DNA from: a virus
DNA length: 50,495 bases
Reading direction: 5' to 3' (one strand)
IMG/VR virus record: IMGVR_UViG_3300021061_000023
Coordinates: 1-50,495 of that record
The translations under genes and the position numbers were made by a program. Numbering within the stretch: the stretch's first letter is position 1; each line of letters begins with the position of its first letter. Below the pieces are notes generated by a model. It did not search any database. It saw nothing but the letters and a program-made list of their open reading frames with translations, and was not told the origin of the DNA. This document shows, piece after piece, positions 2,880 through 31,489 of this stretch.

Positions 2880-4250
2880 ATGCAAACCTACGCAGAGCAA
2901 CGCTCCGCGTACGAGGCCACCCGCGCCTCGTCCGCCGCGCGCATGAAGTCCATCATGGACGAGTCGGCCGCCAAGGGTGAAACCCTGGACGCCGCTCAAC
3001 AGGAAGAGTTCGACACCTTGGAGAAGGACATCGAGGCTGTCGATGCTCAGATCAAGCGGCTGAAGACCCTGGAAAGCCTGAACCTGGAGAAGGCCGTCGA
3101 GGTCAAGGGCGCCACCGCCGAAGAGGGCTCCAACGCCCGCTCCAGCGTGACCGTCCAGGTAAAGGGGACCAACGTCCCGGCCGGCATCGGCTTCGTTCGC
3201 CTGATGGGCGCCAAGTACCTGGCGCAGAAGCACTATCAGGCGCCCGCCGAGATCGCCAAGCAGATGTGGCCGGAGATGCCGGAGCTTCAGACCATCCTTC
3301 GGACGGCTGTCACCCCCGGCAACACCACGGACACCACCTGGGCCTCACCGCTGGTCGAGTACACCAATCTCGCCAGCGAGTTCGTCGATCTGCTGCGGCC
3401 GGCGACCATCATCGGCCGCATCCCCGGCCTGACCCGCGTGCCCTTCAACGTGAAGATTCCCCGCGCCACCACCGACCCGACCGTCAACTGGGTCGGCGAG
3501 GGTAAGGTGAAGCCGGTCTCCTCGATGGCGTTCGACTCGATCACCCTCGACCACACGAAGGTTGCGGGCATCGTGCCCATCACCGAGGAGCTGTTGCGCT
3601 TCTCGAGCCCCTCGGCGGAGATGCTGATCCGCAACGCGCTGGTCGCGGCCGTGGCCTATCTGACCGACCGGGACTTCCTCGACCCGACGAAAGCCGAAGC
3701 GGTGGGCGTGTCGCCGGCTTCGATCACCAACGGCGTCACCCCGATTACCGCCACCGGCACCACGGCCGACGCCCTGCGCGACGACCTCGGCACGCTGCTG
3801 TCGGAGTACGCGGAAGCCAACATGGGCCTTTCCGGCCTGGTCCTGGTGATGACGGCGCAACAGGCGATCAAGATCAGCCTGATGCGCAACAGCCTGGGTC
3901 AGAAGGAGTTCGACACCATCGGCATCGGCGGCGGCACCCTGGAAGGCATTCCGGTGGTCATCTCCGAGAACATCGTCTCCACCGGCGGCTCGCCGGTCGA
4001 CGGTGGCCTGATCGTGGCGATCAACGCTCCCGAAATCCTGCTCGCCGACGACGGCCAGGTGAACGTGGACATGAGCCGCGAAGCCTCGCTGCAAATGGAG
4101 ACCACGCCGGATAGCCCGGCGTCGGCCTCTACGGTCCTGACCTCGCTGTGGCAACACAACATGGTCGCCTTCAGGGCCGAGCGTATGATCCACTGGAAGG
4201 CCCGCCGCTCTGGCGCCGTTCAGTTCATCCAGAACGCCAAGTACCAGTAA
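2880..4250 (+). CDS. HK97-fold major capsid protein
   Basis: The main shell protein of the head, 456 aa. The first ~100 residues are a charged, helical, coiled-coil-like delta domain that the upstream protease would remove; I cannot locate the exact cut. The remainder has HK97-fold features: an E-loop and spine-helix region (VPITEELLRFSSPSAEMLIRN region, about 223-245) and the C-terminal strands ending in MVAFRAERMIHWKARRSGA. A good ribosome site (ggaaggaa) precedes ATG 2880. It lies between the protease and portal genes. Whether it uses covalent cross-links is not visible. Confidence 0.95.
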   Translation: MQTYAEQRSAYEATRASSAARMKSIMDESAAKGETLDAAQQEEFDTLEKDIEAVDAQIKRLKTLESLNLEKAVEVKGATAEEGSNARSSVTVQVKGTNVPAGIGFVRLMGAKYLAQKHYQAPAEIAKQMWPEMPELQTILRTAVTPGNTTDTTWASPLVEYTNLASEFVDLLRPATIIGRIPGLTRVPFNVKIPRATTDPTVNWVGEGKVKPVSSMAFDSITLDHTKVAGIVPITEELLRFSSPSAEMLIRNALVAAVAYLTDRDFLDPTKAEAVGVSPASITNGVTPITATGTTADALRDDLGTLLSEYAEANMGLSGLVLVMTAQQAIKISLMRNSLGQKEFDTIGIGGGTLEGIPVVISENIVSTGGSPVDGGLIVAINAPEILLADDGQVNVDMSREASLQMETTPDSPASASTVLTSLWQHNMVAFRAERMIHWKARRSGAVQFIQNAKYQ

Positions 4251-4763: not shown

Positions 4764-4952
4764 ATGCTGGCGGCTGTTGTCAGCCCTCCGGCAGTTATCG
4801 CATTCCTGGTGCTGTTTGCCGTCGTGAGCGCGGCGGTGGGCGTTTCGATGCTCGTGGGCACGGCGTGGACGCTGATCTTCCTGTCCGCCGTCGCCCTGAC
4901 GATGGCCGTGTTGCTGGCGAGAGGGATGAGATGGCCGAACTCGTCCTCCTGA
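4764..4952 (+). CDS. Small two-helix membrane protein
   Basis: A 62-aa very hydrophobic protein with two predicted membrane segments (about 8-27 and 33-52) and a short basic C-terminus. It begins 13 nt after the previous stop and overlaps the portal start by 22 nt, which fits the compact operon. Small membrane proteins in this position are seen in other HK97-like phages, but I do not recognise the family. It could also be non-coding. Codon use is compatible with translation. Confidence 0.55.
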   Translation: MLAAVVSPPAVIAFLVLFAVVSAAVGVSMLVGTAWTLIFLSAVALTMAVLLARGMRWPNSSS

Positions 4953-6322
4953 CCGCCCTAGCACGGGGCTTGGGGCTCCAGAAGGCGGCGCCGCCTTCTT
5001 CGGTGGATACCAACCGGGGATGGTTCCCGGTAGTGCGGGAGCCATTCACGGGCGCCTGGCAGCGCAACGAGGAAATCCGCCTCGATACCTCGCTGTCCAA
5101 CCCGGTTCTGTTCCGCTGCGTCTCGCTGATCTCCAGCGACGTGGCGAAGATGCGCTGTCGCCTTGTGAGGTTGGACGATGGCATCTGGACGGAAGCTGAA
5201 AACCCGGCGTTTTCACCGGTCCTCAAGCGGCCGAACCGTTATCAGAACCGCATCCAGTTCTTCACCTACTGGATGATCTCCAAGCTGACGATGGGCAACA
5301 CCTACGTCCTGAAGCAGCGGGACAATCGCGGCGTGGTGACGGGGCTGTATGTGCTCGACCCAAGCCGCATCCGACCCCTGGTCGCCTCCGATGGCGCGGT
5401 GTTCTACGAGATCGCCGAGGATAACCTTTCGAATGTCGGAACTCAGGTAACTATCCCCGCGAGCGAGATCATCCACGACCGCTGGAACACGATGTTCCAT
5501 CCGCTCGTCGGACTATCTCCCATCTACGCCTGCGGCCTGTCCGCGTGGCAGGGCCTGGAGATCCAGAGCGCCTCGACGAAGTTCTTCAAGAACGGCAGCC
5601 GGCCGAGTGGGATTCTCACGGCGCCGGGCGCGATCACCGATGAGACCGCGCAGCGCCTGAAGGACACCTGGGAATCCAACTACGGCGGAGTGAACTCCGG
5701 CAAGGTGGCGGTCCTGGGGGATGGGCTGCAGTACGAGCAGATGGCAATGACCGCCATTGACGCTCAGCTGGCCGAGCAACTGAAACTGTCGGCGGAGACG
5801 ATCTGCGGAGCCTACGGGGTGCCTGCCTACATGGCCGGTGTCGGACCGGCCCCGCTGAACAATAACGTTCAGAGCCTCGCTCAGCTCTACTACAGCCAGT
5901 GCATCCAAATTCACTCCGAGTCCATTGAAGAGTGCCTCGATGAGGGTCTCGGCTTGCTGGACAAGAAGGACGGGGTTCGCTGGGGCGTCGAGTTCGACAT
6001 TTCCGACCTCCTGCGCATGGACAGCGAGACCCAAGTGCGGACACTTCGCGAAGGAGTCCAGGGGGCCATCTACAAGCCGAACGAAGCGCGTAAGGTGATG
6101 AACCTGCCCCCCGTCACGGGCGGGGATAGCGCCTATTTGCAACAGCAAAACTTCAGCCTGGAAGCCCTGGCCAAGCGAGACGCGCAGGATGATCCGTTCT
6201 CGCCGTCGAAGGCCGAAACGCCGACTGCGGAGCGTGTCCCGGTACCGGCCAACGATGATGTTCAGGCCAGGGCATTGAGCGCCCTGTTCCAGAAGGAACT
6301 TCGGGAGGCGCTATATGCATGA
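4931..6322 (+). CDS. HK97-family portal protein
   Basis: A 463-aa portal protein forming the dodecameric DNA channel at one head vertex and the attachment point for connector proteins. Start ATG 4931 follows gagggatgag; an upstream in-frame extension exists but lacks a ribosome site. Family features visible: SLSNPVLFRCVSLISSDVA near the N-terminus, the GNTYVLKQRDNRG wing segment, the central ASTKFFKNGSRPSGIL clip region and the GVPAYMAGVGP motif with the following long helix. Its end overlaps the next gene by 8 nt. Confidence 0.94.
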   Translation: MAELVLLTALARGLGLQKAAPPSSVDTNRGWFPVVREPFTGAWQRNEEIRLDTSLSNPVLFRCVSLISSDVAKMRCRLVRLDDGIWTEAENPAFSPVLKRPNRYQNRIQFFTYWMISKLTMGNTYVLKQRDNRGVVTGLYVLDPSRIRPLVASDGAVFYEIAEDNLSNVGTQVTIPASEIIHDRWNTMFHPLVGLSPIYACGLSAWQGLEIQSASTKFFKNGSRPSGILTAPGAITDETAQRLKDTWESNYGGVNSGKVAVLGDGLQYEQMAMTAIDAQLAEQLKLSAETICGAYGVPAYMAGVGPAPLNNNVQSLAQLYYSQCIQIHSESIEECLDEGLGLLDKKDGVRWGVEFDISDLLRMDSETQVRTLREGVQGAIYKPNEARKVMNLPPVTGGDSAYLQQQNFSLEALAKRDAQDDPFSPSKAETPTAERVPVPANDDVQARALSALFQKELREALYA

Positions 6323-7655
6323 CCCGAAGGATCTGGCGTTGGCGATGGCGCCGGTGGTGCGTGAGTTCGTCACCGCTGTAACGGGTCCGCTGCTCAAGCG
6401 GATCGAGGAGCTAGAGGCGCGGGAGATTCCCAAGGCGCTCTCCGCTGACGACATCGACCAGCAGGTCAGGTTCTATCTGGCGGCCAATCCGCCCGCCGCC
6501 CCGATGCTGACGCAAGACATACTCGACCAAATGGCGGACCTCGCCAAGGCTGCTGCGATCACGCTTGAGGACGTTCAGCCGATCATCGACGACGGCGTCG
6601 CCAGGGCCGTTGCGGACCTTCCCGCGCCCAAGGACGGTTCGTCCGTCACCTTGGACGATGTGCGGCCTGTGATCGAAGAGGCCGTCAAGGCCGCCGTCGC
6701 CGACATTCCGGCCCCCAAGGACGGTGCGTCGGTCACCACCGAGGATGTGCAGCCGCTTATCGCCGAAGCGATCGCCAAGGCCGTTGCTGAACTTCCCCGG
6801 CCGAAAGACGGCGAGTCTGTAACCACGGACGACGTTCGTCCTATGATCGAGGAAGCGGTCAAGGTCGCGGTGAGCAGCATTCCGACGGCGAAAGACGGAA
6901 CCTCCGTCACGGTGGAGGATGTCGCCCCGCTTATTGAGGAGCAGGTCAGCAAAGCCGTAGCCGCAATCCCAATCCCGGAGAAGGGCAAGGACGCCGATCC
7001 CGAGGAGGTGGCCCGGTTGGTCGCAGAGACCGTCGAACGCGCTGTGGCGGCGCTCCCTGAGCCCAAGGACGGCCAAGACGCGGACATGGAGGCCCTCGCC
7101 AAACAGGTGGATGCTCTGGTCGCCGAAAAGATGGCCGAAATCCCGGTTCCGCAGGACGGCAAGAGCGTCACGGTCGAGGACGTTGAGCCGGTGCTTGCCG
7201 AGCTGGTCCAGCGCGCCGTCGCTGAAATCCCGGCCCCCAAGGATGGCGTCGGCCTGGCAGGAGCACTTATCGACCGCGACGGGCAGTTGGCTGTGACCCT
7301 AACCAACGGCGAAACGCTGCAGTTGGGCAATGTCGTCGGCCAGGACGGGATCGACGGCAAGAATGGCGATCTCGGCCTCGGCTTCGACGACATGGAGGTC
7401 AACCTTCACGAGGACGGTCGCACGGTTGTCCTGAGTTTCGCTCGCGGAGATGTCCGGAAGGCCTTTGAGATCGGCTTCCCGGTGGTGTTGGATCGCGGCG
7501 TCTTCAAGGACGGCCAGACCTACGAGCCGGGCGACGGTGTGACTTGGGCCGGCTCCTGGTGGATCGCGCAGGAAAAGACAGAGAGCAAGCCGGGCACTGA
7601 TCCGACGTGGCGCCTCGCAGTCAAGCGCGGCCGGGACGGCAAGGACGCAAAATGA
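6315..7655 (+). CDS. Repeat fibre-like protein with C-terminal carbohydrate-binding-like module
   Basis: A 446-aa protein. After a helical N-terminus (about 1-75) come about eight degenerate 30-34-residue repeats of the form 'SVTxEDVxPLIEEAVxKAVAxIPxPKDG' (about 80-315): a helix followed by a proline turn and a PKDG end. A collagen-like GQDGIDGKNGDLG stretch and a small beta domain (about 340-390) follow. The last ~50 residues (YEPGDGVTWAGSWWIAQEKT, then PGTDPTW) match the layout of chitin-binding-like CBM5/12 modules found in phage fibres. It lies between portal and connector, so it may be a head or neck fibre. The function is inferred. Confidence 0.72.
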   Translation: MHDPKDLALAMAPVVREFVTAVTGPLLKRIEELEAREIPKALSADDIDQQVRFYLAANPPAAPMLTQDILDQMADLAKAAAITLEDVQPIIDDGVARAVADLPAPKDGSSVTLDDVRPVIEEAVKAAVADIPAPKDGASVTTEDVQPLIAEAIAKAVAELPRPKDGESVTTDDVRPMIEEAVKVAVSSIPTAKDGTSVTVEDVAPLIEEQVSKAVAAIPIPEKGKDADPEEVARLVAETVERAVAALPEPKDGQDADMEALAKQVDALVAEKMAEIPVPQDGKSVTVEDVEPVLAELVQRAVAEIPAPKDGVGLAGALIDRDGQLAVTLTNGETLQLGNVVGQDGIDGKNGDLGLGFDDMEVNLHEDGRTVVLSFARGDVRKAFEIGFPVVLDRGVFKDGQTYEPGDGVTWAGSWWIAQEKTESKPGTDPTWRLAVKRGRDGKDAK

Positions 7656-8230
7656 GCGTTCGGCTCGTCACCGCACCGGGCTCCTACCCGGTCACCATCG
7701 AGGAGGTGAAGACCCACCTTCGCGTCGATCACGACGAGATGGACGATCATATCGACCTGCTTATCCAGGCCGAGACCGCCTATGTCGAGGACTTCACAGG
7801 GCGCAAGCTGGTCCCGCAGACCTGGGACTTCTTCACGGACGCCTTTCCGACCGATGGGCCGCTCGGCCTGCCCCTGCCGAAGGTCAATTCGGTGGTGGTG
7901 TACTACCTGGACGCAGACGGTGAGGAGCAGGCCCTAGATGCGGACCTCTACGTTGCCGATGTGGACAGTGAGCCCGCTCGGATAGGACTGGCGGCTAACG
8001 CCTCCTGGCCCACGGTCTACGCCGGGCTCAACGCAGTTCGGGTCCGGATGACGGTGGGCAATGAGGAGGCCGGTTCTTCGCCGCCTACGCCTGATGTGCT
8101 GGCGGATATGAAGCTCGCGATCATGCTTCGGGTTCAGGCCAGCTTTGATGGCGGGGACTCCGCAAGGGGCCTTCGCGAGACGGCGGAAAACTACCTTCGT
8201 CGGCGCCGGGTTCACCTCGCCCTTGCCTGA
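7652..8230 (+). CDS. Head-tail connector protein, gp6-like
   Basis: A 192-aa adaptor that docks on the portal. The N-terminal segment (PVTIEEVKTHLRVDHDEMDD then AETAYVEDFTGRKLVPQTW) is the typical signature of the gp6-like/phiE125 gp8 connector family. Start ATG 7652 overlaps the previous stop by 4 nt. The C-terminus (MKLAIMLRVQASFDGGD, then RRRRVHLALA) is longer than in many relatives. Its 3' end overlaps the first gene of the glycan cassette by 83 nt. Confidence 0.85.
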   Translation: MSVRLVTAPGSYPVTIEEVKTHLRVDHDEMDDHIDLLIQAETAYVEDFTGRKLVPQTWDFFTDAFPTDGPLGLPLPKVNSVVVYYLDADGEEQALDADLYVADVDSEPARIGLAANASWPTVYAGLNAVRVRMTVGNEEAGSSPPTPDVLADMKLAIMLRVQASFDGGDSARGLRETAENYLRRRRVHLALA

Positions 8231-8840
8231 ATGGCCGATCTGGGAAGCGGCGGCGGTCATCGCCTCCGGTCCCTCTACGAAACGGGAAGACGTAGAAAGC
8301 CTGAAGGGTCGCCTCCCGGTCCTGGCGATCAAGAGAAACGTGGAATTGGCCCCGTGGGCGGACGCCGTCTACGGCTGCGATTACCCTTGGTGGAGGGCGG
8401 TTCGCGGGCTGCCTGACTACAAGGGCCTGAAGCTCGCATTCGCCCCCAAGGCGGTGGAGCAATACGGGCTGAAACCGGTGCTGATCCCTGAGCACGCCAA
8501 GTCGGACAAGCTGAGATTTGAAACGACGGGGACCGTGGGCGGCGGCGGCTGTTCGGGGTTCCAGGCCTTGAACCTGGCGGTTCAGTTCGGGGCCAAGCGG
8601 GTCCTTCTTCTCGGCTTCGACTGCCAGGATCGAAGCGGGGTTCACTGGTACGGGCGCAACAACGCTCCGGGCATGAGCAATCCGTCACAGAACAACTTCG
8701 CACGGTGGAAGCGGTCGTTTGGAAACGCTGCGGAGCAGCTGAAGGGGAGGGTCGAAGTGGTCAACGCCTCGCCGATCAGCGACCTGAAGTGCTTTCCGAA
8801 GGGAACGGTCGCGGAGACCTTGGCGAGGTGGGGCCGGTGA
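8148..8840 (+). CDS. DUF115/sialyltransferase-like phage protein
   Basis: A 230-aa protein with a Rossmann-like beginning: VIASGPSTKREDVESLKG (about 36-53), then APWADAVYGCDYPWW and, later, GFQALNLAVQFGAKRVLLLGFDC with a GVHWYG segment. This pattern is seen in phage proteins related to the DUF115/MptE-like and family-42-type transferase folds; the substrate is unknown. ATG 8148 lies within the end of the connector gene, and no better start precedes the conserved VIASGPS block. It overlaps the next gene by 4 nt (GTGA). It is the first gene of the carbohydrate cassette. Fold assignment is from recall of motif shape. Confidence 0.68.
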   Translation: MAGTPQGAFARRRKTTFVGAGFTSPLPEWPIWEAAAVIASGPSTKREDVESLKGRLPVLAIKRNVELAPWADAVYGCDYPWWRAVRGLPDYKGLKLAFAPKAVEQYGLKPVLIPEHAKSDKLRFETTGTVGGGGCSGFQALNLAVQFGAKRVLLLGFDCQDRSGVHWYGRNNAPGMSNPSQNNFARWKRSFGNAAEQLKGRVEVVNASPISDLKCFPKGTVAETLARWGR

Positions 8841-9514
8841 TCTTTATCGGCTGGGATCCCCGCGAAGAGACCGCCTGGAAGGTAGCGAAGGCTTCTGTCG
8901 AAAAGCACCTTTCCCGGCCGGTTCCGGTCAGTTCTCTGTGTCTGGAGGAGCTTCGCGAGGCTGGCCTTTACCGCCGTCCGACGGAGACGAGGGACGGACG
9001 GCTTTGGGACGTGATCTCCGGCGCTCCGATGGCTACTCAGCACGCCTGCGCCCGGTTCCTGATTAAGGAATTGGCCGGGTCGGGGTGGGTGGTCTTCATG
9101 GATGGCGACGTGCTTGTGAGGGCGGACCTCGCGGAGCTGATCGACACCCTGGACACGTCGAAAGCGGTCTACTGCGTCAAGCACCGCCACGAGCCCACAG
9201 CGACCGAGAAGATGGATGGGCAGGTTCAGACCCGCTACTTCCGAAAAAACTGGTCGAGCATGATGATCATAAATTGCGATCACCCGGCCAACTCAAAGCT
9301 CACGGTCGAGCTGGTCAATACGGTTCCGGGCCGCGACCTCCACGCCTTTTGCTGGCTTGAGGATGACGAGATCGGCGCTCTGGACACAGGGTGGAATTAC
9401 CTCGTGCCCACGGACGTCAAGATCGCCCACTTCACCGAGGGTGTGCCGGACATGCCGGGATACGAGCAACAGCCCTTTGCCGACGAATGGCGGGAGTTCG
9501 CCCGTTGGGTTTAG
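8837..9514 (+). CDS. Glycosyltransferase, GT-A fold (GT8-like)
   Basis: A 225-aa putative nucleotide-sugar glycosyltransferase. GTG 8837 overlaps the previous stop (GTGA) and gives a natural N-terminus VIFIGWDPRE. The metal-binding DXD motif is DGD (VVFMDGDVLV, about residues 85-94), followed by an acceptor-domain pattern MMIINCDHP and LDTGWNYLVP, as in GT8-like proteins. No membrane segment is seen, so it should be cytoplasmic. It is one of three GT-A-like genes in the cassette. The sugar and acceptor are unknown. Confidence 0.78.
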   Translation: MIFIGWDPREETAWKVAKASVEKHLSRPVPVSSLCLEELREAGLYRRPTETRDGRLWDVISGAPMATQHACARFLIKELAGSGWVVFMDGDVLVRADLAELIDTLDTSKAVYCVKHRHEPTATEKMDGQVQTRYFRKNWSSMMIINCDHPANSKLTVELVNTVPGRDLHAFCWLEDDEIGALDTGWNYLVPTDVKIAHFTEGVPDMPGYEQQPFADEWREFARWV

Positions 9515-10266
9515 GCGACCAGTTGATGGCTTCGGGAATGGCAAGGGGCGCCAAGGCCAGGGGCAAGCGGATCGCCTTCGGGGATGGCCGGCGTGTCATC
9601 TGGGACAAGCACAGCGACATCATCTTCCGCGACAACCCGAACATCGCCCGCCCCGGAACGGAACGGCGGACGGATATCGAGTGGGTCCATTACTACAAGG
9701 GGTCGCGGATCTATAACCGCCAGGACGGCGACCGGTGGGTCTGGAACATGGACTTCCGCGCCACGCCTGGGGAAATCTACCAAACCCAAGGGGAGAAGCA
9801 GGACGGCCGCCGGTTCGGCGCTGGATTCGTCCTGATCGAACCGAACGTCGAGGACTGGAAATCGAGCGCCCCGAACAAGGATTGGGGGCTGGAGAAGTAC
9901 CAGGCTCTCGCCAACAAGCTGAAGGGCCGGCTGCTGCAGTTTTCGCACGGCAAGCGCCGGCTCAGGGGTGTGGAGACCATCACCGCCAAGGACTTCCGGG
10001 ACGCGCTGGGGATCATGGCGAACGCCCGCCTCTACATTGGCCCCGAGGGCGGATTGCACCACGGCGCGGCGGCGATGGGGACCAAGGCGGTGGTTCTGTT
10101 CGGCGGGTTCATTCCGCCCCAGGTGACCGGCTACGAGACCCACGAGAACCTGACGGGTGGCGCGGAGGCCTGCGGCTCCCTGAAGCCCTGCGATCACTGC
10201 CGAAAGGCGATGGACAACATTTCGGTGGAGGAAGTCTTGGCTGCGGTGAAACGCCTGGATGGCTGA
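9505..10266 (+). CDS. Glycosyltransferase family 9-like protein (GT-B)
   Basis: A 253-aa protein. Start TTG 9505 overlaps the previous gene by 10 nt and yields GLGDQLMASGMARGAKARGK, the expected first Rossmann strand-helix; ATG 9526 is the alternative. The C-terminal domain carries YIGPEGGLHHGAAAMG (about 176-191) followed by AVVLFGGFIPPQVTGY, the donor-site motif of GT9 heptosyltransferase-type enzymes. A CxxC-like pair (CGSLKPCDHC) lies near the end. GT9 enzymes add sugars to lipopolysaccharide core; here the acceptor is unknown. Confidence 0.77.
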   Translation: MGLGDQLMASGMARGAKARGKRIAFGDGRRVIWDKHSDIIFRDNPNIARPGTERRTDIEWVHYYKGSRIYNRQDGDRWVWNMDFRATPGEIYQTQGEKQDGRRFGAGFVLIEPNVEDWKSSAPNKDWGLEKYQALANKLKGRLLQFSHGKRRLRGVETITAKDFRDALGIMANARLYIGPEGGLHHGAAAMGTKAVVLFGGFIPPQVTGYETHENLTGGAEACGSLKPCDHCRKAMDNISVEEVLAAVKRLDG

Positions 10267-10816
10267 GTACAAGGTGCAGCGCCGCGTCGCTGGCGAACAC
10301 GACTTCCGCCTCGACGGCATGGCCGATCTGCTTCATCGGGCGCGGGGCGTGTCGGTGCTCGACATCGGCTGCAACCGGGGCATGGTCGGGCTTGAGTTTG
10401 CCCGAAACGGGGCGAACAAGGTCCACGGCTTGGATATCTATGAGCCGGGCATCGCGGCGGCTCGGGAGGTGTTTGCCGACATCCGGTCGGTGGATAGCCG
10501 CTTCGAAGTCTGCGACCTCACTCGTGGCCCGGAGCATCTTCCCCTGACAGGGAACTACGACATCGTCCTCTGTCTGGCCACCTACCACAAACTGAAGCGA
10601 GTCATGGCGGCTGACGCCTTGAGCAGCCTGTTCGTCCAATTTGGGTCGATGACCAAGGGCTACTTCGGCTGGCGGGCGACGTCCGACAAGCCCGATGAGA
10701 ACGATCAGGAAATGAAGGCCCTGGACAGGGACCTGGGCGACGCCGGCCTGCGGCGCATTCACACCTCCTACATCAGCACCGAGCTGGGCGTGGCGGCGAT
10801 ATGGGCGAGGGTTTGA
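10259..10816 (+). CDS. Class I SAM-dependent methyltransferase
   Basis: A 185-aa methyltransferase. Motif I is VLDIGCNRGMVG (about 33-44), the acidic residue ending strand 2 is in HGLDIYEPG, and the post-strand-4 segment is YDIVLCLATYHKL, which resembles small-molecule or sugar methyltransferases and not DNA methylases (no DPPY or NPPF). It overlaps the GT9-like gene by 8 nt and the next methyltransferase by 1 nt. In this context it may methylate a sugar in the glycan made by its neighbours; that is an inference. Confidence 0.78.
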   Translation: MAEYKVQRRVAGEHDFRLDGMADLLHRARGVSVLDIGCNRGMVGLEFARNGANKVHGLDIYEPGIAAAREVFADIRSVDSRFEVCDLTRGPEHLPLTGNYDIVLCLATYHKLKRVMAADALSSLFVQFGSMTKGYFGWRATSDKPDENDQEMKALDRDLGDAGLRRIHTSYISTELGVAAIWARV

Positions 10817-11424
10817 TGGGCCGATACCTGACGGACGCCGCGCAGGACCCGACGGAGATCGCGGCGTTCTGCGATCTGCTGAGGCGCGAGGGCGTCACCT
10901 CCTATCTGGAGATCGGCTCCAAGTTCGGCGGCTCGCTCTGGCAAGTCGCGACGGCCCTTCCGAAGGGCTCGCGCATCGTCTCGGTCGACCTGCCGAGCGG
11001 AACCAAGGCATGGACGGCCAGCCGATCGTCCCTGGGCGCCTGCATCGAGGAGCTGAATCGGATCGGCTATGACGCCCAGGTCATCTGGGGCAACAGCATG
11101 GACCCGGCGATCATTGAACAGGTGCGCGAGCGGGGTCCCTACGACGCAATGCTGATCGACGCAGATCACCGCTGGGACCGGACAAACCCGGCCCCGAACG
11201 GCGTCCAGGCCGACTTCCTGAACTACGGGCCGATGGGCCGCATCGTCGCCTTCCACGACCTGGCTTGGCGCCGAGCGCCGGATTGGGTCGGGACGCGGAT
11301 CGACGTTCCGGAGTTCTGGGCGTCGATCAAGGATGATTATCGGCACGAGGAAATCATCCTCTGCCCGACCAAGAAAAACAACGGCATTGGGATTTTGTGG
11401 AGGGACGCTGATGCCGGAGCGTGA
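10816..11424 (+). CDS. Second class I SAM methyltransferase-like protein
   Basis: A 202-aa protein with SYLEIGSKFGGSLW (motif I, about 29-42), IVSVDLPSG (strand 2) and YDAMLIDADHRWD (strand 4), the layout of Methyltransf_24 or cephalosporin-hydroxylase-like sugar methyltransferases. ATG 10816 gives a TGATG junction with the previous gene; an upstream ATG at 10801 is possible but lies inside it. The late GPMGRIVAFHDL segment is also typical of this group. It probably acts with the glycosyltransferases. Confidence 0.75.
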   Translation: MGRYLTDAAQDPTEIAAFCDLLRREGVTSYLEIGSKFGGSLWQVATALPKGSRIVSVDLPSGTKAWTASRSSLGACIEELNRIGYDAQVIWGNSMDPAIIEQVRERGPYDAMLIDADHRWDRTNPAPNGVQADFLNYGPMGRIVAFHDLAWRRAPDWVGTRIDVPEFWASIKDDYRHEEIILCPTKKNNGIGILWRDADAGA

Positions 11425-11509
11425 TGAGCCCCCCGAATTGGCGCTGCCGTCCTTCCGGGAGGCGATCACCAACCTTCTTTTCAACTGGTTCGGCGTTCTG
11501 TGGCGCTGA
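11411..11509 (+). CDS. 32-aa small protein
   Basis: A short frame with a good ribosome site (ggaggg) five bases before ATG 11411, overlapping the methyltransferase end by 14 nt and the next glycosyltransferase start by 10 nt. The peptide has an acidic, proline-rich start and an amphipathic or hydrophobic end (ITNLLFNWFGVLWR), suggesting membrane contact. The function is unknown. It may serve mainly to couple translation of the GTG-started downstream gene. Confidence 0.45.
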   Translation: MPERDEPPELALPSFREAITNLLFNWFGVLWR

Positions 11510-12138
11510 TCGTCTCGACGTGGTCGTGGGGCTCCAAGTACGGCCCTGAGTACCTTGAACGCCTGAAGGCCGGCGTAGCCCGCAATCTGTCCCTGCCCTA
11601 CGAGTTCCGGGTCTTTCATCCTGAGCCGGAGGACATGCACCTCACGGCCATTCCGGGCTGTTTCGCCAGGCTTCGCGTTTTTGATCCGGAGTGGCAGGCA
11701 CGGCAGGGGATCAACGAAGGCGACCGGATCGTCTGCCTGGACTTGGATCTCGTCGTCACCGGCGTCCTTGACGATCTTTTCTCGCGTCCGGAGCACTTCG
11801 CCATCCTGTCGGGAGTGAACAGCGCCAACCCATGCTGGGCCAACGGGTCGGTCTGGTGGACAACGGCAGGCTATCGGCCGGACGTTTGGTCTGATTTCAG
11901 CTTAGAGGCGGCGAACAAGCTGCTGGCGTATGAATTTGCGGACGACCAGCTTTGGCTTGCGGACAAGCTGCCAGACGCGGGCCGGATCACGTTAGAGGAT
12001 GGCGTGTACGCCTTCCAAAAGCCCGGCTGGCCCAAGGGCGAGGCTCTACCGAGGAACGCCCGCATCGTCGCGTTCCCGGGCTGGCGAGACCCAAGCGGCT
12101 GGACCCATCTGCCCTGGATCAAGGAGCATTGGCGGTGA
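11500..12138 (+). CDS. Glycosyltransferase-like protein, GT-A fold
   Basis: A 212-aa protein starting with GTG 11500 (ALIVSTWSWGSKYGPEYLERL). The DXD-type motif is LDLDLVVTG (about 79-87). WANGSVWW and the C-terminal WPKGEALPRNARIVAFPG, including a HLPWIKEHW end, are typical of the phage glycosyltransferase-like proteins that follow this fold. It is coupled to the small upstream frame and overlaps the acyltransferase gene by 4 nt. No signal or membrane segment. The donor sugar is unknown. Confidence 0.74.
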   Translation: MALIVSTWSWGSKYGPEYLERLKAGVARNLSLPYEFRVFHPEPEDMHLTAIPGCFARLRVFDPEWQARQGINEGDRIVCLDLDLVVTGVLDDLFSRPEHFAILSGVNSANPCWANGSVWWTTAGYRPDVWSDFSLEAANKLLAYEFADDQLWLADKLPDAGRITLEDGVYAFQKPGWPKGEALPRNARIVAFPGWRDPSGWTHLPWIKEHWR

Positions 12139-12629
12139 TCCATCCCCAGGCCGTGGTTGATGGCCAGAACGAGGACGTGACGATCTGGCAATTCGCTTCG
12201 GTCATCCGGGGTGCAGTGATCGGGCGTGGCTCAAGCATCGGGGCCTGCGCCATCGTTGACGGCGCAAGGCTGGGTGAGCGGGTGAGGGTCGGACACGGCG
12301 CCAGCATTCACCCGGGCGTCTGGATCGGGGACGACGTGTTCATCGGTCCTGGGGTAGTTGCCTGCAATGACCTGAACCCGAGGGTCGGGGGCGGTTTCGA
12401 TCTGCAAGCCTTGCTGGACGGCAAGGTGGTGGTTCGCATCGAGGACGGCGCCAGCATCGGGGCGAACTCAACGATCCTGCCGGGCGTGACCATTGGTAAG
12501 CGGGCCATGATCGCGGCCGGGTCCCTCGCCACCGCCGACGTGAAGGATGACGAGCTGTGGCTTCAGCGGCGGCCGAACGGCGACGGACGGTTGATGTCGC
12601 CCCTGCCGGTTCCGCCCGGCGGCCTGTAG
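12135..12629 (+). CDS. Hexapeptide-repeat acyltransferase (left-handed beta-helix)
   Basis: A 164-aa protein made mostly of hexapeptide repeats ([IV]-G-x-x-[AS]-x type): VIGRGSSIGACAIV, VRVGHGASIHPGVWIGDDVFIGPGV and ASIGANSTILPGVTIGKRAMI. This is the trimeric left-handed beta-helix fold of sugar O- and N-acyltransferases such as WbpD/WlbB. GTG 12135 overlaps the previous stop. The catalytic histidine may be in VGHGASIH. It probably acylates an amino-sugar or sugar hydroxyl in the cassette product. Confidence 0.84.
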   Translation: MIHPQAVVDGQNEDVTIWQFASVIRGAVIGRGSSIGACAIVDGARLGERVRVGHGASIHPGVWIGDDVFIGPGVVACNDLNPRVGGGFDLQALLDGKVVVRIEDGASIGANSTILPGVTIGKRAMIAAGSLATADVKDDELWLQRRPNGDGRLMSPLPVPPGGL

Positions 12630-13231
12630 TGCTCACCGTCGCTACCTGTTTCTGGCGCCCGAACGAGCACAGCGCAGAGGCCAGCCGCTGCTACACCGAA
12701 GAGTGGGTCAACCGGCTAGCTCGTGGTTTCAAGCGCAACCTGACGATCCCGCATCGGTTTGTGGCTCTGACGGATCGGCCCTACCAACTGGACTGCGACC
12801 AGGAGCTTCTATCAACCGACAAGCCGGACTGGTCCTGCATGATTGAGCCCTTCCGTATCGAGGGGCCATTGATCGTGGTCGGGCTGGATACGGTGATCAT
12901 CGGCAACATCGACCAGCTGGCGGAGTGGTGTTTCACGAGGGACCGGATGGGCCTGCCCAGGTCGCCGGGCAAGGACTACGTCTGCAACGCCATCGCGCTA
13001 GTTCCCGAGGGGTATAAGCAAGTCTTTATGTCGTGGTCGGGCGAGAACGACATGGAGTGGTTGCGGACCTTCCCGCACGACTTCATCGACGATGATTTTC
13101 CGGGCTGGGTTTCTTCCTACAAGTGCGACATCCGCCCGAACGGCCTGGGGGAAACCCGCGTCGCGTACATGCACGGCAGGCCAAAAATGCACGAGATCAA
13201 CGAGCCTTGGGTTCGGCAGCATTGGGTTTGA
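12629..13231 (+). CDS. Third GT-A-like glycosyltransferase
   Basis: A 200-aa protein starting with GTG 12629, sharing one base with the previous stop. It begins VLTVATCFWRP and continues with a nucleotide-binding-like order (HRFVALTDRP, then PLIVVGLDTVIIGNID, about 80-95). The canonical DXD is replaced by LDTVI, so metal binding may differ or the enzyme may be degenerate. The C-terminus (YMHGRPKMHEINEPWVRQHW) resembles the acceptor end of the neighbouring glycosyltransferase at 11500. It closes the first half of the cassette. Confidence 0.7.
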   Translation: MLTVATCFWRPNEHSAEASRCYTEEWVNRLARGFKRNLTIPHRFVALTDRPYQLDCDQELLSTDKPDWSCMIEPFRIEGPLIVVGLDTVIIGNIDQLAEWCFTRDRMGLPRSPGKDYVCNAIALVPEGYKQVFMSWSGENDMEWLRTFPHDFIDDDFPGWVSSYKCDIRPNGLGETRVAYMHGRPKMHEINEPWVRQHWV

Positions 13232-13361
13232 GCGCTGCGGCGGCGAGGGACTCAAACCCTCAATACGCCGGTCCTTCGGTATCACCATTCCGCCCGGCTC
13301 GCCGATTGCTCGACTTTCGCGTCTGTCAGTTAGGTGCGTTTTCCGCCAGCCGCCGCAGCGC
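13232..13361 (-). other. Long inverted repeat with tRNA-like acceptor/T-arm geometry
   Basis: A perfect 13-bp inverted repeat (13232-13244 and 13349-13361) encloses 104 bp. On the minus strand the 3' arm directly follows a 5-bp stem with a 7-base loop, TTTGAGT (13261-13245). This is the arrangement of a tRNA T-arm next to the acceptor stem. The 5' arm is followed by TGGCGGAA, as in tRNA-Leu positions 8-15. No convincing anticodon arm folds and there is no CCA, so it is not called a tRNA. It fills the only real gap (144 nt) in the glycan cassette. Confidence 0.4.
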
Positions 13362-13375
13362 AGGAAAGGTATCAC

Positions 13376-14197
13376 TTGCGGCTTGAACCGGCAAACACGG
13401 CATTCTTCCGTCCCAACGGCTTGAGCGCCTTCAAGGTCAGGCTTTTCGACAGGGTTGGGGCCGCCATCCAAGCTGCCGGCGGCGCCTATGTGAAGGGCGA
13501 CTTCGAGCTTCTGGACCACAAGGTAAGCAAGGGCCGCATTCCGATAGTCGGCTGCACGCCGGAGCTTCGGCCCTACATCAACCGATGGAGGGAGGAAGGG
13601 CGGACGTGGGTCTACTGGGATCGGGGCTATAATCGCCGGGTCTTTGCCACGGACCTGCCAACAGGAACGGACGGGGGCTACTACCGCTGGCAGGTCAACG
13701 GCTACCAGATGCGCGAGATCAGGGATGTCCCTGCCGACCGCTGGCGGGCCGCTGCAACGCCGTTGTGGCCCTGGTCAAAGAACGGCCGACACATCGTGGT
13801 CGCCGAGCCCTCGCCGACCTATCAGCGCTTCCACCGGATCGAGGGCTGGACGGAGCGGACGCTAGAGGCCCTGAAGGCCATCACAGACCGGCCCATCGTG
13901 GTCCGCGACAAGGAACAGCAGCGGTTCGGACGCAAGCTGCATGAGGATTTGAAGGGCGCCCACTGCCTCGTCACCCACGGCTCTAACGCGGCGGTGGAGG
14001 CGGTCATCATGGGTTGCCCGGTGTTCGTTCACCCCGACAGCGCCGCCTCCCTGGTGGGGCGAACCGATTTCGATATCGAAAACCCGATCTACCCCGACCG
14101 CGAGCCCTGGGTTCGGTCGCTTGCCTACTCACAGTTCAACGAGCGCGAGCTGATCGACGGCACCCTGTGGCGGCTGCTTGGAGGCCCAAATGACTGA
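13376..14197 (+). CDS. GT-B-like glycosyltransferase (KpsC/LpsZ-like)
   Basis: A 273-aa protein. TTG 13376 is preferred because aggaaagg lies 8 bases upstream; a GTG at 13334 would include the inverted repeat. The C-terminal domain has HCLVTHGSNAAVEAVIMGCPVFVH (about 198-221), the donor-site pattern of capsular-polysaccharide GT-B proteins of the KpsC/LpsZ type, preceded by TDRPIVVRDKEQQRFG. It overlaps the next structural gene by 8 nt. It probably adds or transfers a sugar in the same pathway as its upstream neighbours. The acceptor is unknown. Confidence 0.7.
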   Translation: MRLEPANTAFFRPNGLSAFKVRLFDRVGAAIQAAGGAYVKGDFELLDHKVSKGRIPIVGCTPELRPYINRWREEGRTWVYWDRGYNRRVFATDLPTGTDGGYYRWQVNGYQMREIRDVPADRWRAAATPLWPWSKNGRHIVVAEPSPTYQRFHRIEGWTERTLEALKAITDRPIVVRDKEQQRFGRKLHEDLKGAHCLVTHGSNAAVEAVIMGCPVFVHPDSAASLVGRTDFDIENPIYPDREPWVRSLAYSQFNERELIDGTLWRLLGGPND

Positions 14198-14396
14198 CAC
14201 CGAAATGAAGGCGCCAACGATGAGGGTTCGATTTCTCCGCGACTACGACTACGTTCCATCGGGAGCGCCCCGCTCCATCGTGGCGTACAAGGCGAACACA
14301 AAGCCGACCGTGAAGCGCGAGGCCGGCGAGGCCGCCATCGCCAACGGTGCGGCTGTCGAAATCGCCCCGCCGAAGCGCGTCCGTGGCCGCACCTAA
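14190..14396 (+). CDS. Small head-module protein
   Basis: A 68-aa protein with ribosome site ggagg ahead of ATG 14190. The sequence (MRVRFLRDYDYVPSGAPRSIVAYKA then REAGEAAIANGAAVEI) has the pattern of short beta-rich phage proteins that sit among connector genes in HK97-like phages; no function is established. It overlaps its neighbours on both sides by 8-14 nt. It marks the return to structural genes after the glycan cassette. Confidence 0.72.
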   Translation: MTDTEMKAPTMRVRFLRDYDYVPSGAPRSIVAYKANTKPTVKREAGEAAIANGAAVEIAPPKRVRGRT

Positions 14397-14742
14397 GTCC
14401 CCCGGCGACCTCAGGCAGCGCATCACCTTCCAGCGCCGCCTGACGGCGTCCGACGGCTACGGCAATCATCAAGGCGACTGGGCGGACCTGTTCACCCGCT
14501 GGGCAAGCATCAACCCTACGCGGGGTGGCGAGGAAATCCAGGCCGGGCGGATCGCTGGCAAGGCCACCTGGGATTTGTGGATGCGCAATGACGGCCAGGG
14601 CCGGGAGGTGGTGACCGGGGACCGGGCCATCGACCAGCGCGACAAGACGCGGACGTTCAACATCGTCTTCGGGCCGGTGGATATGTACGGGGATGGCAAG
14701 TTCTTGTTCTGCCAACTCCAGTCCGGTGTCGCTGATGGCTAG
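14383..14742 (+). CDS. Head closure (head-tail joining) protein
   Basis: A 119-aa protein of the Phage_H_T_join type, which plugs the connector after packaging. The signature RQRITFQRRLTASDGYGNHQGDW near the N-terminus, and the later W-x-x-I-x-P-x-x-G-x-E pattern (WASINPTRGGEEIQAGR), are characteristic. GTG 14383 is chosen because it starts just before the conserved block and overlaps the previous gene by 14 nt. The next gene overlaps by 8 nt. Confidence 0.82.
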   Translation: MAAPKSPGDLRQRITFQRRLTASDGYGNHQGDWADLFTRWASINPTRGGEEIQAGRIAGKATWDLWMRNDGQGREVVTGDRAIDQRDKTRTFNIVFGPVDMYGDGKFLFCQLQSGVADG

Positions 14743-20351: not shown

Positions 20352-20788
20352 CGCACCCAGCGATCCGGCGGCAACAGGCCGCGCAAGCCGTTCTCGACCA
20401 GTTCAAAGGGCGCCAGATCGATTACCGGGATGTCGACTGTGGACGCATGGCGAAGGCGCTCCTTCTGGCCATGGGACACAAGCCCCGATGGGCTCGGTTC
20501 AGCGGCTACACGACCGAGCGCGGAGCCGTCCTGAAGCTGAAGCGGGCCGGCTTCAACGACGTGGCTGCAGTAGTTGATGACCTGGGGTTCCCCCGTGTCC
20601 CCTTCAGCATGGCGATGCGGGCCGATCTGCTTGGGTTCCCCGATGGGGGCTGGACGGCGTTAGGGGTGGCCATGGGCGGTGGGAAGTTTCTGGCGGCCCG
20701 GGGATCTGATCAGGTGTTCGAGGTTGGCGGCGATCTGCCGCCGCACTTGATGGATCAAGCCTTCGCCTGGCGGGTGGAGCCGCGCTGA
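20348..20788 (+). CDS. DUF6950-type tail protein (possible peptidase-like)
   Basis: A 146-aa protein with QIDYRDVDCGRMAKALLLAM (Cys about 34), LKRAGFNDVAAVVDDLGFPRVP and GDLPPHLMDQAFAWRV at the end. The DC motif followed by a helix and the overall order match DUF6950 phage proteins, which occupy the place of the NlpC/P60-type GTA gp14 peptidase between minor tail and hub genes. Catalysis is not proven; only the Cys is evident. It shares one base with the hub gene start. Confidence 0.72.
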   Translation: MTHPAIRRQQAAQAVLDQFKGRQIDYRDVDCGRMAKALLLAMGHKPRWARFSGYTTERGAVLKLKRAGFNDVAAVVDDLGFPRVPFSMAMRADLLGFPDGGWTALGVAMGGGKFLAARGSDQVFEVGGDLPPHLMDQAFAWRVEPR

Positions 20789-23196
20789 TGGGAGCGTTGG
20801 CGGGTGTGTTCTCCAGCGCCGTGAACTGGGTCGGAGGGATGTTCTCCGGCGGCGCGGCCGGTGGTGTCGGCGCTGGCAGCGTTGGCGCAGGGACTACGAA
20901 CGCCATGGTGAGCGGCTTCGCATCGGCGGCGGGCAGTTCAGGGTTCATCGGCCAGGTCGCCAATACTGCGTTTCAGCTTGCGCTCTCGTCGGCTCTCTCA
21001 GTGGCCTTTCAGCCAAATCTTGCCAGCTCTGGCGGGCAGACGATCAAGTGGCGCCCCGACCCGAACGCAGGCGTTCCCTACGTGCTGGGTAGAACGGCTA
21101 CGGCCGGCGCTCCGGTCTATAAGAATGTCTACGGCGGGGAGAAGGCTCGCCACTACCGAACGGTCAACGTCCTGTCGGTCGGTCCTATCGAGGGGATCGA
21201 AGCGCAGTTCATGAACGACGTTGACACCACGTTCAACGTCAACCGGAACGCAGTCGGCTATTACAACGACCTGATGTGGTTCGACTACAAAGTCGGCAAC
21301 ATCACGGAGTCGGCGCACACCCTTTCCACGCCGCCGTTTACGCCCGATCCCGATACTGTCTTCACGACGGACCACAAGATTTCGGGGCTGGCGACCTACC
21401 AGCTGATCATGCGCTACGCGGCGCTGAAGTATTCCACCGGGCCGGCCACGCCGCTCATGGTGACGCTTGGGCCGGCTGTATACGACCCGCGAGAGGACAG
21501 CTCTGTTCCTGGGGGATCGGGATCGCAGGACTCGACCGACCCTGACACCTGGTCGTTTACGGGGCGAAGCAATCCCTTCCTGCAGGCCATCACATGGTCG
21601 CTCGGGATCAAGGGGTGGGACGGATCGAGCAGCCCTGGCCAGTGGGTGACGCTGTTGGGCGCGGGAATGCCCATTGCCGGCATAGACACGGCGGCCTTCA
21701 TGGAGGGGGCCAACGTCTGCGAGACGAACGGCTGGACCTGCGGCGGCGTCGCGCTCTCCACGGATGCGAAGTACACGGTGCTGGAGCAGATGCTTCGCGC
21801 CGGTGGCGGGCGACCGATCCCGATGGGCGGGAAAATGTCGGTCATGGTGCAGGCGCCGAGGGTGTCTATCGCCACGCTGACCGGCGCGGATTTGGTCGGG
21901 CCGATTTCTCTCACGGGGCCGCCGGGGTTCAGGGAGCGGTTCAACACGGTCATTCCCCGCTACCGCGAAGAGGATCGCGGTTGGGAGGTGATCGCGGCAG
22001 ACCCGGTCTCTGTCCCGGCCTTCGTGGTGGCCGATGAAGGTCCGCGAACGAGGGAGATTGGATACCCCTTCGTTCAAGACAAGGACCAAGCGGCGCAGCT
22101 GGCCAAGTACGACATTTGGGAAAGCCGTGAGGCCGGACCGTGGGAATTGGAGGTGCGCCCTCGCTGGCGGGCGTTGAAGCCCGGGGATTGCATCACCCTC
22201 GACGAACCTGAGCTTGGCATTGATGCGGTGAAGCTGTTGATCCGCGAGCGGACCCGCAACCCGGTCACCGGTCGCGTGGTCCTGCGCTGCTGGACCGAGA
22301 CGGACGCCAAGCACGCCGACGCCCTAGGCGCTACCGGCACGCTGCCGGCGGCCGGCGGGTTCGATACGACCGAGCCGGGGATCGAGCCGCCGGATAGCGG
22401 AACTTGGACTGCGACGCCGGGAACGGCTGTTGGGGGCGGGGCGGAAATCCCGGTGATCTACATCACGGGGACCGTGGATAGCGTCGAGGCGGCCGACCTT
22501 GTCGTTCGCTACCGTATCGACACAGGCTCGCCGGCTTCAGATTGGGAATACGTCGCCTTTCCGGTGGACGCGCCCAAGATGCCGATCCCGGCCATCGCGC
22601 CGATCACCGACTATGAAATCGAGTACGCCTATCGGTCCGTTCGTGGGGCGGTCTCAGAGACGTGGACGGCAGACGCCGGCGGCTTCGTCACGACCGGTGA
22701 CCTGATCCCGATGGATGACAGCGTCACCACGCCGAAGATCGTGGATGAGAATGTCACCATCCTTGAGCAGCAGACCCGATCCACGGGCTTCGGTGGCGCT
22801 GGAGCGATCTTCATTCCCTGGCAAGGCGCGGGGAATGACGTGTTCACACAGCTGGATGAGTACACCTTCACCTACAGCGGCGAGGGTTCGATCACCATTG
22901 AATGGACTGGCAAGATCGAGTGGCAGCGCAACGCCGCGACACACCTCAAGTTCTTCGTCAGCTTGGACGAGAGCCCAACCTTCACCGGGTCATACGGGGG
23001 TTTCGAGGGTGACATCGTCATCTATCAGGGCAACCAGAATGCCCTGTCTTCAGTGGTCATCCTGCCCATCAACCTGTCGGGATTGAGCGTCGGCAGCCAC
23101 ACGCTCGAAATCTGGGCTCAGACCGAAGAGAACACGGCCAACGTGCCGTACCTCGACACCGGCGCGACCTTCAAAGAGTTCGTGAGCAAGAAATGA
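20788..23196 (+). CDS. Tail tip/hub protein (host-specificity, J-like)
   Basis: An 802-aa central tail tip protein. A glycine/alanine-rich N-terminus (about 10-60) precedes QTIKWRPDPNAGVPYVLGRT, typical of phage tail hub proteins. The middle (VLEQMLRAGGGRPIPMGGKM, about 330-350, and GDCITLDEPELG) resembles J-like domains III, and the C-terminal ~200 residues look like beta-sandwich modules (ITDYEIEYAYRSVRGAVSET). It is coupled to its neighbours and followed by a small protein and the fibre. Confidence 0.82.
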   Translation: MGALAGVFSSAVNWVGGMFSGGAAGGVGAGSVGAGTTNAMVSGFASAAGSSGFIGQVANTAFQLALSSALSVAFQPNLASSGGQTIKWRPDPNAGVPYVLGRTATAGAPVYKNVYGGEKARHYRTVNVLSVGPIEGIEAQFMNDVDTTFNVNRNAVGYYNDLMWFDYKVGNITESAHTLSTPPFTPDPDTVFTTDHKISGLATYQLIMRYAALKYSTGPATPLMVTLGPAVYDPREDSSVPGGSGSQDSTDPDTWSFTGRSNPFLQAITWSLGIKGWDGSSSPGQWVTLLGAGMPIAGIDTAAFMEGANVCETNGWTCGGVALSTDAKYTVLEQMLRAGGGRPIPMGGKMSVMVQAPRVSIATLTGADLVGPISLTGPPGFRERFNTVIPRYREEDRGWEVIAADPVSVPAFVVADEGPRTREIGYPFVQDKDQAAQLAKYDIWESREAGPWELEVRPRWRALKPGDCITLDEPELGIDAVKLLIRERTRNPVTGRVVLRCWTETDAKHADALGATGTLPAAGGFDTTEPGIEPPDSGTWTATPGTAVGGGAEIPVIYITGTVDSVEAADLVVRYRIDTGSPASDWEYVAFPVDAPKMPIPAIAPITDYEIEYAYRSVRGAVSETWTADAGGFVTTGDLIPMDDSVTTPKIVDENVTILEQQTRSTGFGGAGAIFIPWQGAGNDVFTQLDEYTFTYSGEGSITIEWTGKIEWQRNAATHLKFFVSLDESPTFTGSYGGFEGDIVIYQGNQNALSSVVILPINLSGLSVGSHTLEIWAQTEENTANVPYLDTGATFKEFVSKK

Positions 23197-23585: not shown

Positions 23586-23637
23586 CGTCTCGGGGCGTCC
23601 GCCCCCGGCCCTTAACCCCTAACGCTTGCAGGTGACA

Positions 23638-31210: not shown

Positions 31211-31489
31211 ATGACGCTCCCCAAGATCGTCACCGACCTGTTTACCGGCCCTGACGGCCACACCTGGCACATGGGCCGGTTCGGCGCGGCCATGACGGTG
31301 ATCAGCGGTCTTCCCCTGCCTTGGGTGCAGCTCTGGCGCACAGGTGTCCTGGACCTTGCGGCGACGGGCGTCTTCTACAGCGGTGTCGCGGCTGGGGCCT
31401 GGGCGATGGCCCAGGGCGCCAAGAACATGGACCTGATGCCTGAGGGGTCCGCCACCACAACCACCACCACGACAACGGAGACCCTGTAA
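31211..31489 (+). CDS. Holin-like membrane protein
   Basis: A 92-aa protein with two hydrophobic segments (about 25-42 and 47-66) and a short soluble end with eight consecutive threonines encoded by an ACN run. It lies directly before the DUF2778 gene (1-bp overlap) in the lysis module, so a holin role is reasonable. Ribosome site agagg precedes ATG 31211. No family is certain. Confidence 0.62.
   Translation: MTLPKIVTDLFTGPDGHTWHMGRFGAAMTVISGLPLPWVQLWRTGVLDLAATGVFYSGVAAGAWAMAQGAKNMDLMPEGSATTTTTTTTETL

Follow-up and report, generated by a model that had tools for sequence, protein, structure and literature searches.

Why should a phage carry nine glycan-type genes in the midst of its head genes, and what would their products modify? 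The question is raised by IMG/VR virus record IMGVR_UViG_3300021061_000023, a 50,495-base sequence with a GC content of 0.64 that was analysed over its whole length (hereafter the window), in which nine open frames at 8148–14197 on the plus strand lie between the genes of a gp6-like head-tail adaptor and of the head closure protein Hc1. As seen below, the cassette encodes glycan-type enzymes by family or fold match (their activities are predicted), and related cassettes are found beside head genes in other phage sequences. We consider it somewhat probable that these enzymes assemble an oligosaccharide in the cytosol on one of the virion proteins, and the strongest points for this are the Maf fold of the leading enzyme, the lack of membrane parts, and a location beside head genes that has been kept through several changes of slot.

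The leading gene (8148..8840) encodes a DUF115-like protein of 230 amino acids (aa) from phrog_4603 (E-value 1e-39), which is predicted to have the fold of the Maf catalytic domain. It is followed by a GT8-like glycosyltransferase of GT-A type with DGD within FMDGD (8837..9514; phrog_28018, E 4e-48, and PF01501, E 1e-4, just below the cut-off, both scored on a longer frame starting at 8705) and by a GT9-like GT-B glycosyltransferase of the heptosyltransferase family (9505..10266; PF01075, E 5e-6, above the cut-off, scored on a longer frame starting at 9391). Two S-adenosylmethionine (SAM) methyltransferases are encoded at 10259..10816 (PF13649, E 1e-9) and 10801..11424 (PF13578, E 3e-5, just under the cut-off with 25.4 versus 26.3 bits, and a weak RMNT_CmcI match). 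Next are a GT-A-like glycosyltransferase with a DLD motif, here called GTx (11500..12138; phrog_1962, E 5e-8), a hexapeptide acetyltransferase of the WxcM/WlbB type (12135..12629; PF00132, E 4e-24), and a second phrog_1962 glycosyltransferase with GLD in place of the DLD of GTx (12629..13231; E 9e-32). The last enzyme (13334..14197) has no firm sequence family, and its AlphaFold model has a GT-B fold of the Kdo-transferase type (Kdo, 3-deoxy-D-manno-octulosonic acid). An alignment of the two phrog_1962 enzymes gives 24–29% identity, and their joint profile finds the Skp1 galactosyltransferase (E 9e-4) and glycogenin-2 (E about 0.1), while the acetyltransferase matches PDB entries 4mzu (WxcM-like, E 6e-25, residues 1–142 of 164), 7s3u (an N-acetyltransferase, E 8e-25) and 3mqg (WlbB-type, E 4e-20). 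By family or fold, then, several glycosyltransferases are encoded by the phage.

A first-pass annotation of this sequence had described nine genes in this position, comprising one DUF115-like, three GT-A-like and two GT-B-like proteins, two SAM methyltransferases and one hexapeptide protein; all nine open frames were found, and PHROG, Pfam or fold matches agree with these classes. It had also described overlaps of 1–14 nucleotides (nt) except for one 144-nt gap, which needs correction: the leading frame, taken from 8148, overlaps the adaptor frame by 83 nt, and there are two gaps inside the cassette, of 75 nt (11424–11500) and 102 nt (or 144 nt, should the TTG at 13376 be the start of the last gene). 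The frames share one strand, mostly overlap and sit amid head genes, and their third-position GC (0.74–0.84) is inside the range of the neighboring genes. The 149 nt that separate the cassette from Hc1 contain most of a 63-aa frame (14205..14396, plus strand), which overlaps the start of Hc1, matches phrog_29233 (function unknown, E 6e-4) and is not a glycan gene as far as can be seen. Membrane segments were found in none of the nine cassette proteins, whose highest 19-residue hydropathy mean is at most 1.56; 15 stop-to-stop stretches (at least 60 codons) in the window surpass a mean of 2.0.

The fold of the leading protein was predicted with AlphaFold from 20 sequences (pLDDT 89.6; L060 and L068, which have a stop inside the chosen range, and L069 were left out of the alignment). 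The best structural match of the model is Maf (5mu5; Z 15.6, root-mean-square deviation (rmsd) 3.0 Å over 182 residues), covering residues 256–513 of a 632-residue chain, and the next are the sialyltransferases Cst-I and Cst-II (Z 10.6–12.1). Besides two further groups that are weighed below, mammalian sialyltransferases score 8.3–9.6 and thiamin pyrophosphokinases 6.2–8.5, with all others at 5.4 or less. Pfam family PF01973 (MptE-like) matches the protein at E 0.003 with 17.6 bits, below the gathering cut-off of 34.6, and the phrog_4603 member of Caulobacter phage CcrColossus scores 31.8 bits. Since the window's member resembles Maf most closely in fold, the label 'alpha-2,3-sialyltransferase' carried by phrog_4603 may be misleading. 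According to excerpts of two papers, Maf glycosylates Ser/Thr from CMP-nonulosonates, with CMP-Kdo also accepted (PMC11339370), and modifies flagellin in the cytoplasm before export (PMC4065374). The window protein shares the fold of the Maf catalytic domain and has no membrane segment, and cytosolic glycosylation of subunits before assembly is the parallel that we propose.

For the last enzyme, the model (pLDDT 88.3) is closest to the retaining Kdo transferases WbbB (Z 11.4–11.9, rmsd 5.0–5.5) and KpsC (Z 10.2–11.4), followed by KrkA (Z 8.3–8.4) and by other GT-B proteins at 8.0 or less. The WbbB and KpsC matches span 226–246 residues with rmsd of 4.3–5.5, the Foldseek search also returned KpsC first (E 2e-4), and the likeness to this group covers most of the enzyme's length, although a profile search of PDB sequences gave no match to them at E up to 1. 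The known enzymes WbbB, KpsC and KrkA act on polysaccharide or lipid acceptors. The donor of WbbB is CMP-Kdo, as the titles of its PDB entries say. Across 20 sequences of the last enzyme 60 columns are invariant, Asp82 within YWDRG being one of them.

We then looked at how widely the cassette occurs. A second contig, IMGVR_3300020202_001225, encodes all nine proteins at 99–100% identity. A search of viral contigs, with the adaptor and five cassette proteins as queries, found 61 loci (six of them one near-identical contig), and the last enzyme, used to scan genomes, found five (in one Hyphomonadaceae metagenome-assembled genome (MAG), one Phenylobacterium MAG, two Mesorhizobium genomes, with prophages L072 and L073, and one Bradyrhizobium genome). 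After removal of 12 duplicate loci, window and reference proteins were mapped onto 66 loci plus the window. All seven core genes are present in 20 sequences, 17 of which have the window's order (L045, L050 and L071 depart from it), and because homologous cassettes elsewhere keep the same order, a chance arrangement is excluded. Among the 33 sequences in which the stretch from GTx to the last enzyme is visible, the acetyltransferase and the second phrog_1962 enzyme occur together in 13, are jointly missing from 20 and are found singly in 0; we take the two genes to be an add-on that supplies one acetylated sugar. In L071, a contig of the Phenylobacterium MAG, the cassette is in two blocks and capsid and terminase genes are on both strands; this contig represents either two prophages or a misassembly. 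Two loci from metagenome 3300046000 (L064 and L030), one of which ends and the other of which begins within the DUF115 gene, may belong to a single phage. Cassette proteins of the window and L030 are 62–82% identical and the downstream head-tail proteins 28–59%, a contrast that suits exchange of the block, with slower evolution of the cassette as an alternative.

The position of the cassette was counted in the 33 sequences with at least four cassette families (CcrColossus included; L014, L065, L070 and L071 left out), using head and tail genes as flank queries. At least one flank is a recognised head gene in 28 of them. Both flanks were recognised in 15 (capsid/portal 11, adaptor/Hc1 3, repeat protein/Hc1 1) and one flank in 13 (Hc1 5, portal 3, adaptor 2, repeat protein 2, capsid 1). 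The adaptors of L032 and L050 were checked with PHROGs and those of L053 and L060 match the window's own adaptor, while the query from L006 labeled 'gp6' is mislabeled and is not an adaptor. In the window the cassette is embedded in the head-tail region, as the first-pass annotation held; the insertion between gp6-like and head closure genes that it suggested looking for in related phages is found in some sequences and the capsid/portal slot in others. In a tree built from the last enzyme (29 rows, with the slot resting on a single flank for some), the capsid/portal label changes at least 3 times even on well supported branches (bootstrap range 3–4), and so the block, or its neighbors, moved several times.

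A further scan with a GT8 profile yielded at least 600 stretches, at least 595 of them confirmed, and 80 were kept. We examined 79 of these loci (L028 was already covered); L088 is the contig of L050, which leaves 78 new contigs. Another gene of the same glycan families is present in 63 of the 79, many at 25–35% identity. A very similar set of genes, for the most part in one order, recurs in phages of alphaproteobacteria at differing head-gene positions, and this recurrence suggests, without proving, that such phages decorate their own particles with an unusual glycan.

More distant kin were found in other phages. Relatives of the GT8, GT9 and last-enzyme genes are present in Caulobacter phages (CcrColossus, CcrPW, CcrSC, CcrBL9 and Bertelyvirus), with 14 records, several phages being recorded twice, matching each of the three; the matches include no record from the phiCbK group. 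In CcrColossus, the one such record read, they are found beside a phrog_4603 gene (gp126), an unknown and a methyltransferase; the stretch that holds these relatives of four cassette families and another methyltransferase is flanked by tail and lysis genes, and its order differs from that of the window. D3 has a phrog_4603-type gene 3' of its capsid gene and a methyltransferase 5' of its gp10 gene, and PAJU2 has a phrog_4603-type gene, an unknown and a methyltransferase, all after Hc1. Tetraselmis viridis virus S20 has one phrog_4603 gene before the adaptor and seven genes from adaptor to Hc1 (GT-D, a second phrog_4603 gene, a methyltransferase, GT2, an FkbM methyltransferase, an unknown and a phrog_1962 gene). 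We rejected S20 as an exact nine-gene copy, as PHROG places its adaptor at TVGG_00048 and not at TVGG_00050, which leaves seven genes. Like the window, these three phages have a methyltransferase and a phrog_4603-type gene (S20 has two of the latter) among their head-tail connector genes, but they differ in other gene content, D3 and PAJU2 each having two recognised glycan-type genes plus unknowns. P1-like RCS47 has a phrog_4603-type gene and a glycosyltransferase among 'morphogenetic' genes. In Pelagibacter phage Mosig (L009, 6940–12774), relatives of the GT8 and last-enzyme genes adjoin a 'sulfotransfer' gene and two methyltransferases.

From these data we propose how the cassette may work. 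It would be a transferable set for O-glycosylation of protein in the cytosol, and its products would be made together with the virion proteins. The DUF115/Maf-like enzyme would start the glycan by transferring an acidic sugar from its CMP-activated form, either Kdo or a nonulosonic acid out of the host pool, to Ser/Thr residues in a protein of the head or neck; extension would fall to the GT8, GT9 and GTx enzymes, the Kdo-transferase-like last enzyme would attach a further acidic sugar, the two methyltransferases would modify the glycan, and the acetyltransferase and its partner glycosyltransferase would attach one optional N-acetylated sugar. We infer the donors, the acceptor, the order of steps and the location of the product on the virion. 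Nucleotide-sugar synthesis enzymes were found neither among the nine proteins nor among 27 further open reading frames (ORFs) scanned, and the donors would accordingly come from the host.

A number of observations weigh against this proposal. The structure-based search that the first-pass annotation had suggested placed the two models nearest to Maf and to WbbB/KpsC, but the fold of the DUF115-like protein is common to the archaeal pyrophosphokinase HPPK (Z 10.8–11.5) and to SteA (Z 9.7–9.8), and this protein need therefore not be a glycosyltransferase. It corresponds to the central domain of Maf only, with a Pfam score far below the cut-off, and the N- and C-terminal domains of Maf are not present in its 230 aa. 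Foldseek returned CstII first for this model (E 1e-3), with zero matches at E ≤0.001 and Maf absent among the best 50; for the last enzyme, its five matches at E ≤0.001 include a solute-binding protein and have TM-scores of 0.26–0.54. Profiles of the two proteins found zero PDB sequences at E up to 1. Five of the 33 sequences have no recognised flank within the limits used, and the flank count is blind to neighbors of other kinds. Recognised virion genes were seen in 18 of the 79 GT8 loci, all 18 with another glycan gene, a number that is neither a firm floor nor a ceiling because the structural queries came mostly from D3-like phages, and some of the 18 rest on weak tape-measure matches. The Mosig relatives adjoin nucleotide-metabolism and not virion genes, a poor fit to a virion link, and the P1 genes pmgO, pmgP and pmgQ are nonessential by CRISPR interference in the excerpted text of PMC10695390. 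Finally, GT9 and the WbbB/KpsC fold are typical of enzymes of lipopolysaccharide (LPS) or capsule, the precursors of which are likewise cytosolic, and membership in an operon does not name the target.

Composition does not single out an acceptor, which counts on the same side. In small and related comparison sets, Ser plus Thr makes up on average 0.074 of the 446-aa repeat protein in phages with the cassette (n=14) versus 0.101 in four without it, 0.157 (n=14, one partial) versus 0.129 (n=4, L078 having a wrong-frame tail) of the capsid protein, and 0.201 (n=3) versus 0.155 (n=1) of the tail tube protein. The repeat protein (6315..7655, plus strand, 3' of the portal gene; phrog_1289, E 7e-80) had been named in the first-pass annotation as a candidate acceptor. 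We rejected it as a dedicated acceptor, as it is poorer in Ser/Thr in the cassette phages and its relatives occur in phages without the cassette: JLK-2012, FSL SP-016, RHph_X2_26 and SOVA965, whose head regions were searched out of 20 records with a relative, have zero cassette genes by annotation and tblastn within 7–10 kb on each side where possible, and their adaptor and closure genes adjoin directly or with one small gene between. Of the earlier interpretation, the glycan-type enzymes and the head-gene location are supported and this acceptor is not. In the capsid/portal slot the cassette comes after the capsid gene, and the capsid protein (2880..4250, plus strand; phrog_617, E 2e-96) is the leading candidate, as a guess on little evidence.

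The main rival, a serious one even if we judge it unlikely, is a late remodelling of the host's LPS or capsule by these enzymes, acting on cytosolic lipid-linked intermediates before export; the possible gain would be, for example, that released phage does not stick to debris or that rivals are excluded. The LPS and capsule affinities of the GT9 and last enzymes speak for it. Acetyl- and methyltransferases decorate O-antigens. PHROGs class phrog_1962 under moron and host takeover, and the CcrColossus genes adjoin lysis genes. A host glycan is harder to reconcile with a lead enzyme whose nearest fold is a protein glycosyltransferase, with head genes adjoining the cassette in most sequences despite the slot changes, and with nine proteins that have no membrane segment and so include neither a flippase nor a membrane-bound transferase. 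The gtr O-antigen clusters, which likewise encode phage glycosyltransferases, carry a membrane flippase and membrane-bound transferases and adjoin the integrase. The cassette differs from them on both counts: the integrase gene (40575–41795; phrog_1, E 9e-39), from which we take the phage to be temperate, is 26 kb away or, in the case of a circular record, about 17 kb in the opposite direction.

Less probable again is that the cassette glycosylates a tail fibre or receptor-binding protein, with a role in adsorption specificity and not in decoration of the head. The CcrColossus cassette does come after tail genes; in the window, however, head and connector genes surround the cassette and the fibre-like gene (20788–23196) follows 6.6 kb further on, and the other siphophage contigs with recognised flanks also have it among head genes. 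Glycosylation of phage DNA (hypermodified bases) against restriction is very improbable: phage glycosyltransferases that glycosylate DNA are known (PMC12619734), but the cassette is amid head genes, and a base-hydroxylating or hydroxymethylating enzyme was not found among the 27 distinct further ORFs scanned with PHROGs, Pfam or both, which are a part of the window's ORFs and many of which are without any match.

The surroundings of the cassette are those of a siphovirus-type phage. The gene order is terminase, protease (2231–2848, named by its match to the protease part of the PAJU2 protease-capsid fusion), capsid, portal (4865–6322), repeat protein, adaptor (7607/7652–8230, plus strand; phrog_442, E 2e-22, and phrog_40, E 1e-12), the cassette and Hc1 (14347..14742, plus strand; phrog_25, E 3e-15), with tail completion, terminator, tail tube and tape measure genes 3' of Hc1. 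A 1530-aa protein encoded after the tail-fibre-like gene (23626–28218) has zero PHROG matches at E 0.001 and zero Pfam matches at E 0.01, and a Tlde1-domain (L,D-transpeptidase-like) protein is encoded in the late region (31489–31866). A near-DNA search among phages gave zero matches to the window.

Glycosylation of virions as such is already known. As described in excerpts of PMC12619734, PMC13313380 and PMC12691614, capsid and tail tube are glycosylated in mycobacteriophages (Freeman et al. 2023, cited therein), and some actinobacteriophages have a glycosyltransferase beside a methyltransferase gene, with glycosylation of capsid and tail tube shown or proposed. The likeness consists of phage glycosyltransferases, adjoined by a methyltransferase gene in some actinobacteriophages; the present system, whose glycan is predicted, differs in host phylum and in its conserved block of 7–9 genes, located amid head genes and including a Maf-like and a Kdo-transferase-like enzyme. 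The titles and abstract openings of open-licence PMC literature gave no description of this cassette, and the available part of the phiCbK/CcrColossus paper (PMC3556154) has no word starting with 'glycosyl' or 'transferase'. Excerpts of PMC8402811 describe host glycans on a cystovirus, and those of PMC10783043 describe gene sets of alphaproteobacterial phages, this cassette not among them. What looks new to us is this combination of enzymes, together with the gene order and the move between slots.

Taken as a whole, and more tentatively than the glycosylation of a virion protein itself, the cassette may be a mobile, order-conserved system of alphaproteobacterial phages, separate from that of the mycobacteriophages, which makes on the head or neck a methylated oligosaccharide that is acidic through Kdo or a nonulosonate and can optionally be N-acetylated, initiated by a stripped-down Maf, with a looser form in hundreds of uncultivated phages. 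Should the product indeed sit on the virion, phages of proteobacteria would commonly glycosylate their particles with several enzymes, and this would have been overlooked, because the genes concerned carry the labels 'alpha-2,3-sialyltransferase', moron or hypothetical. If true, this would be testable at once in cultured phages, would provide a source of small Maf-like enzymes for study, and would bear on how phages meet receptors and defences.

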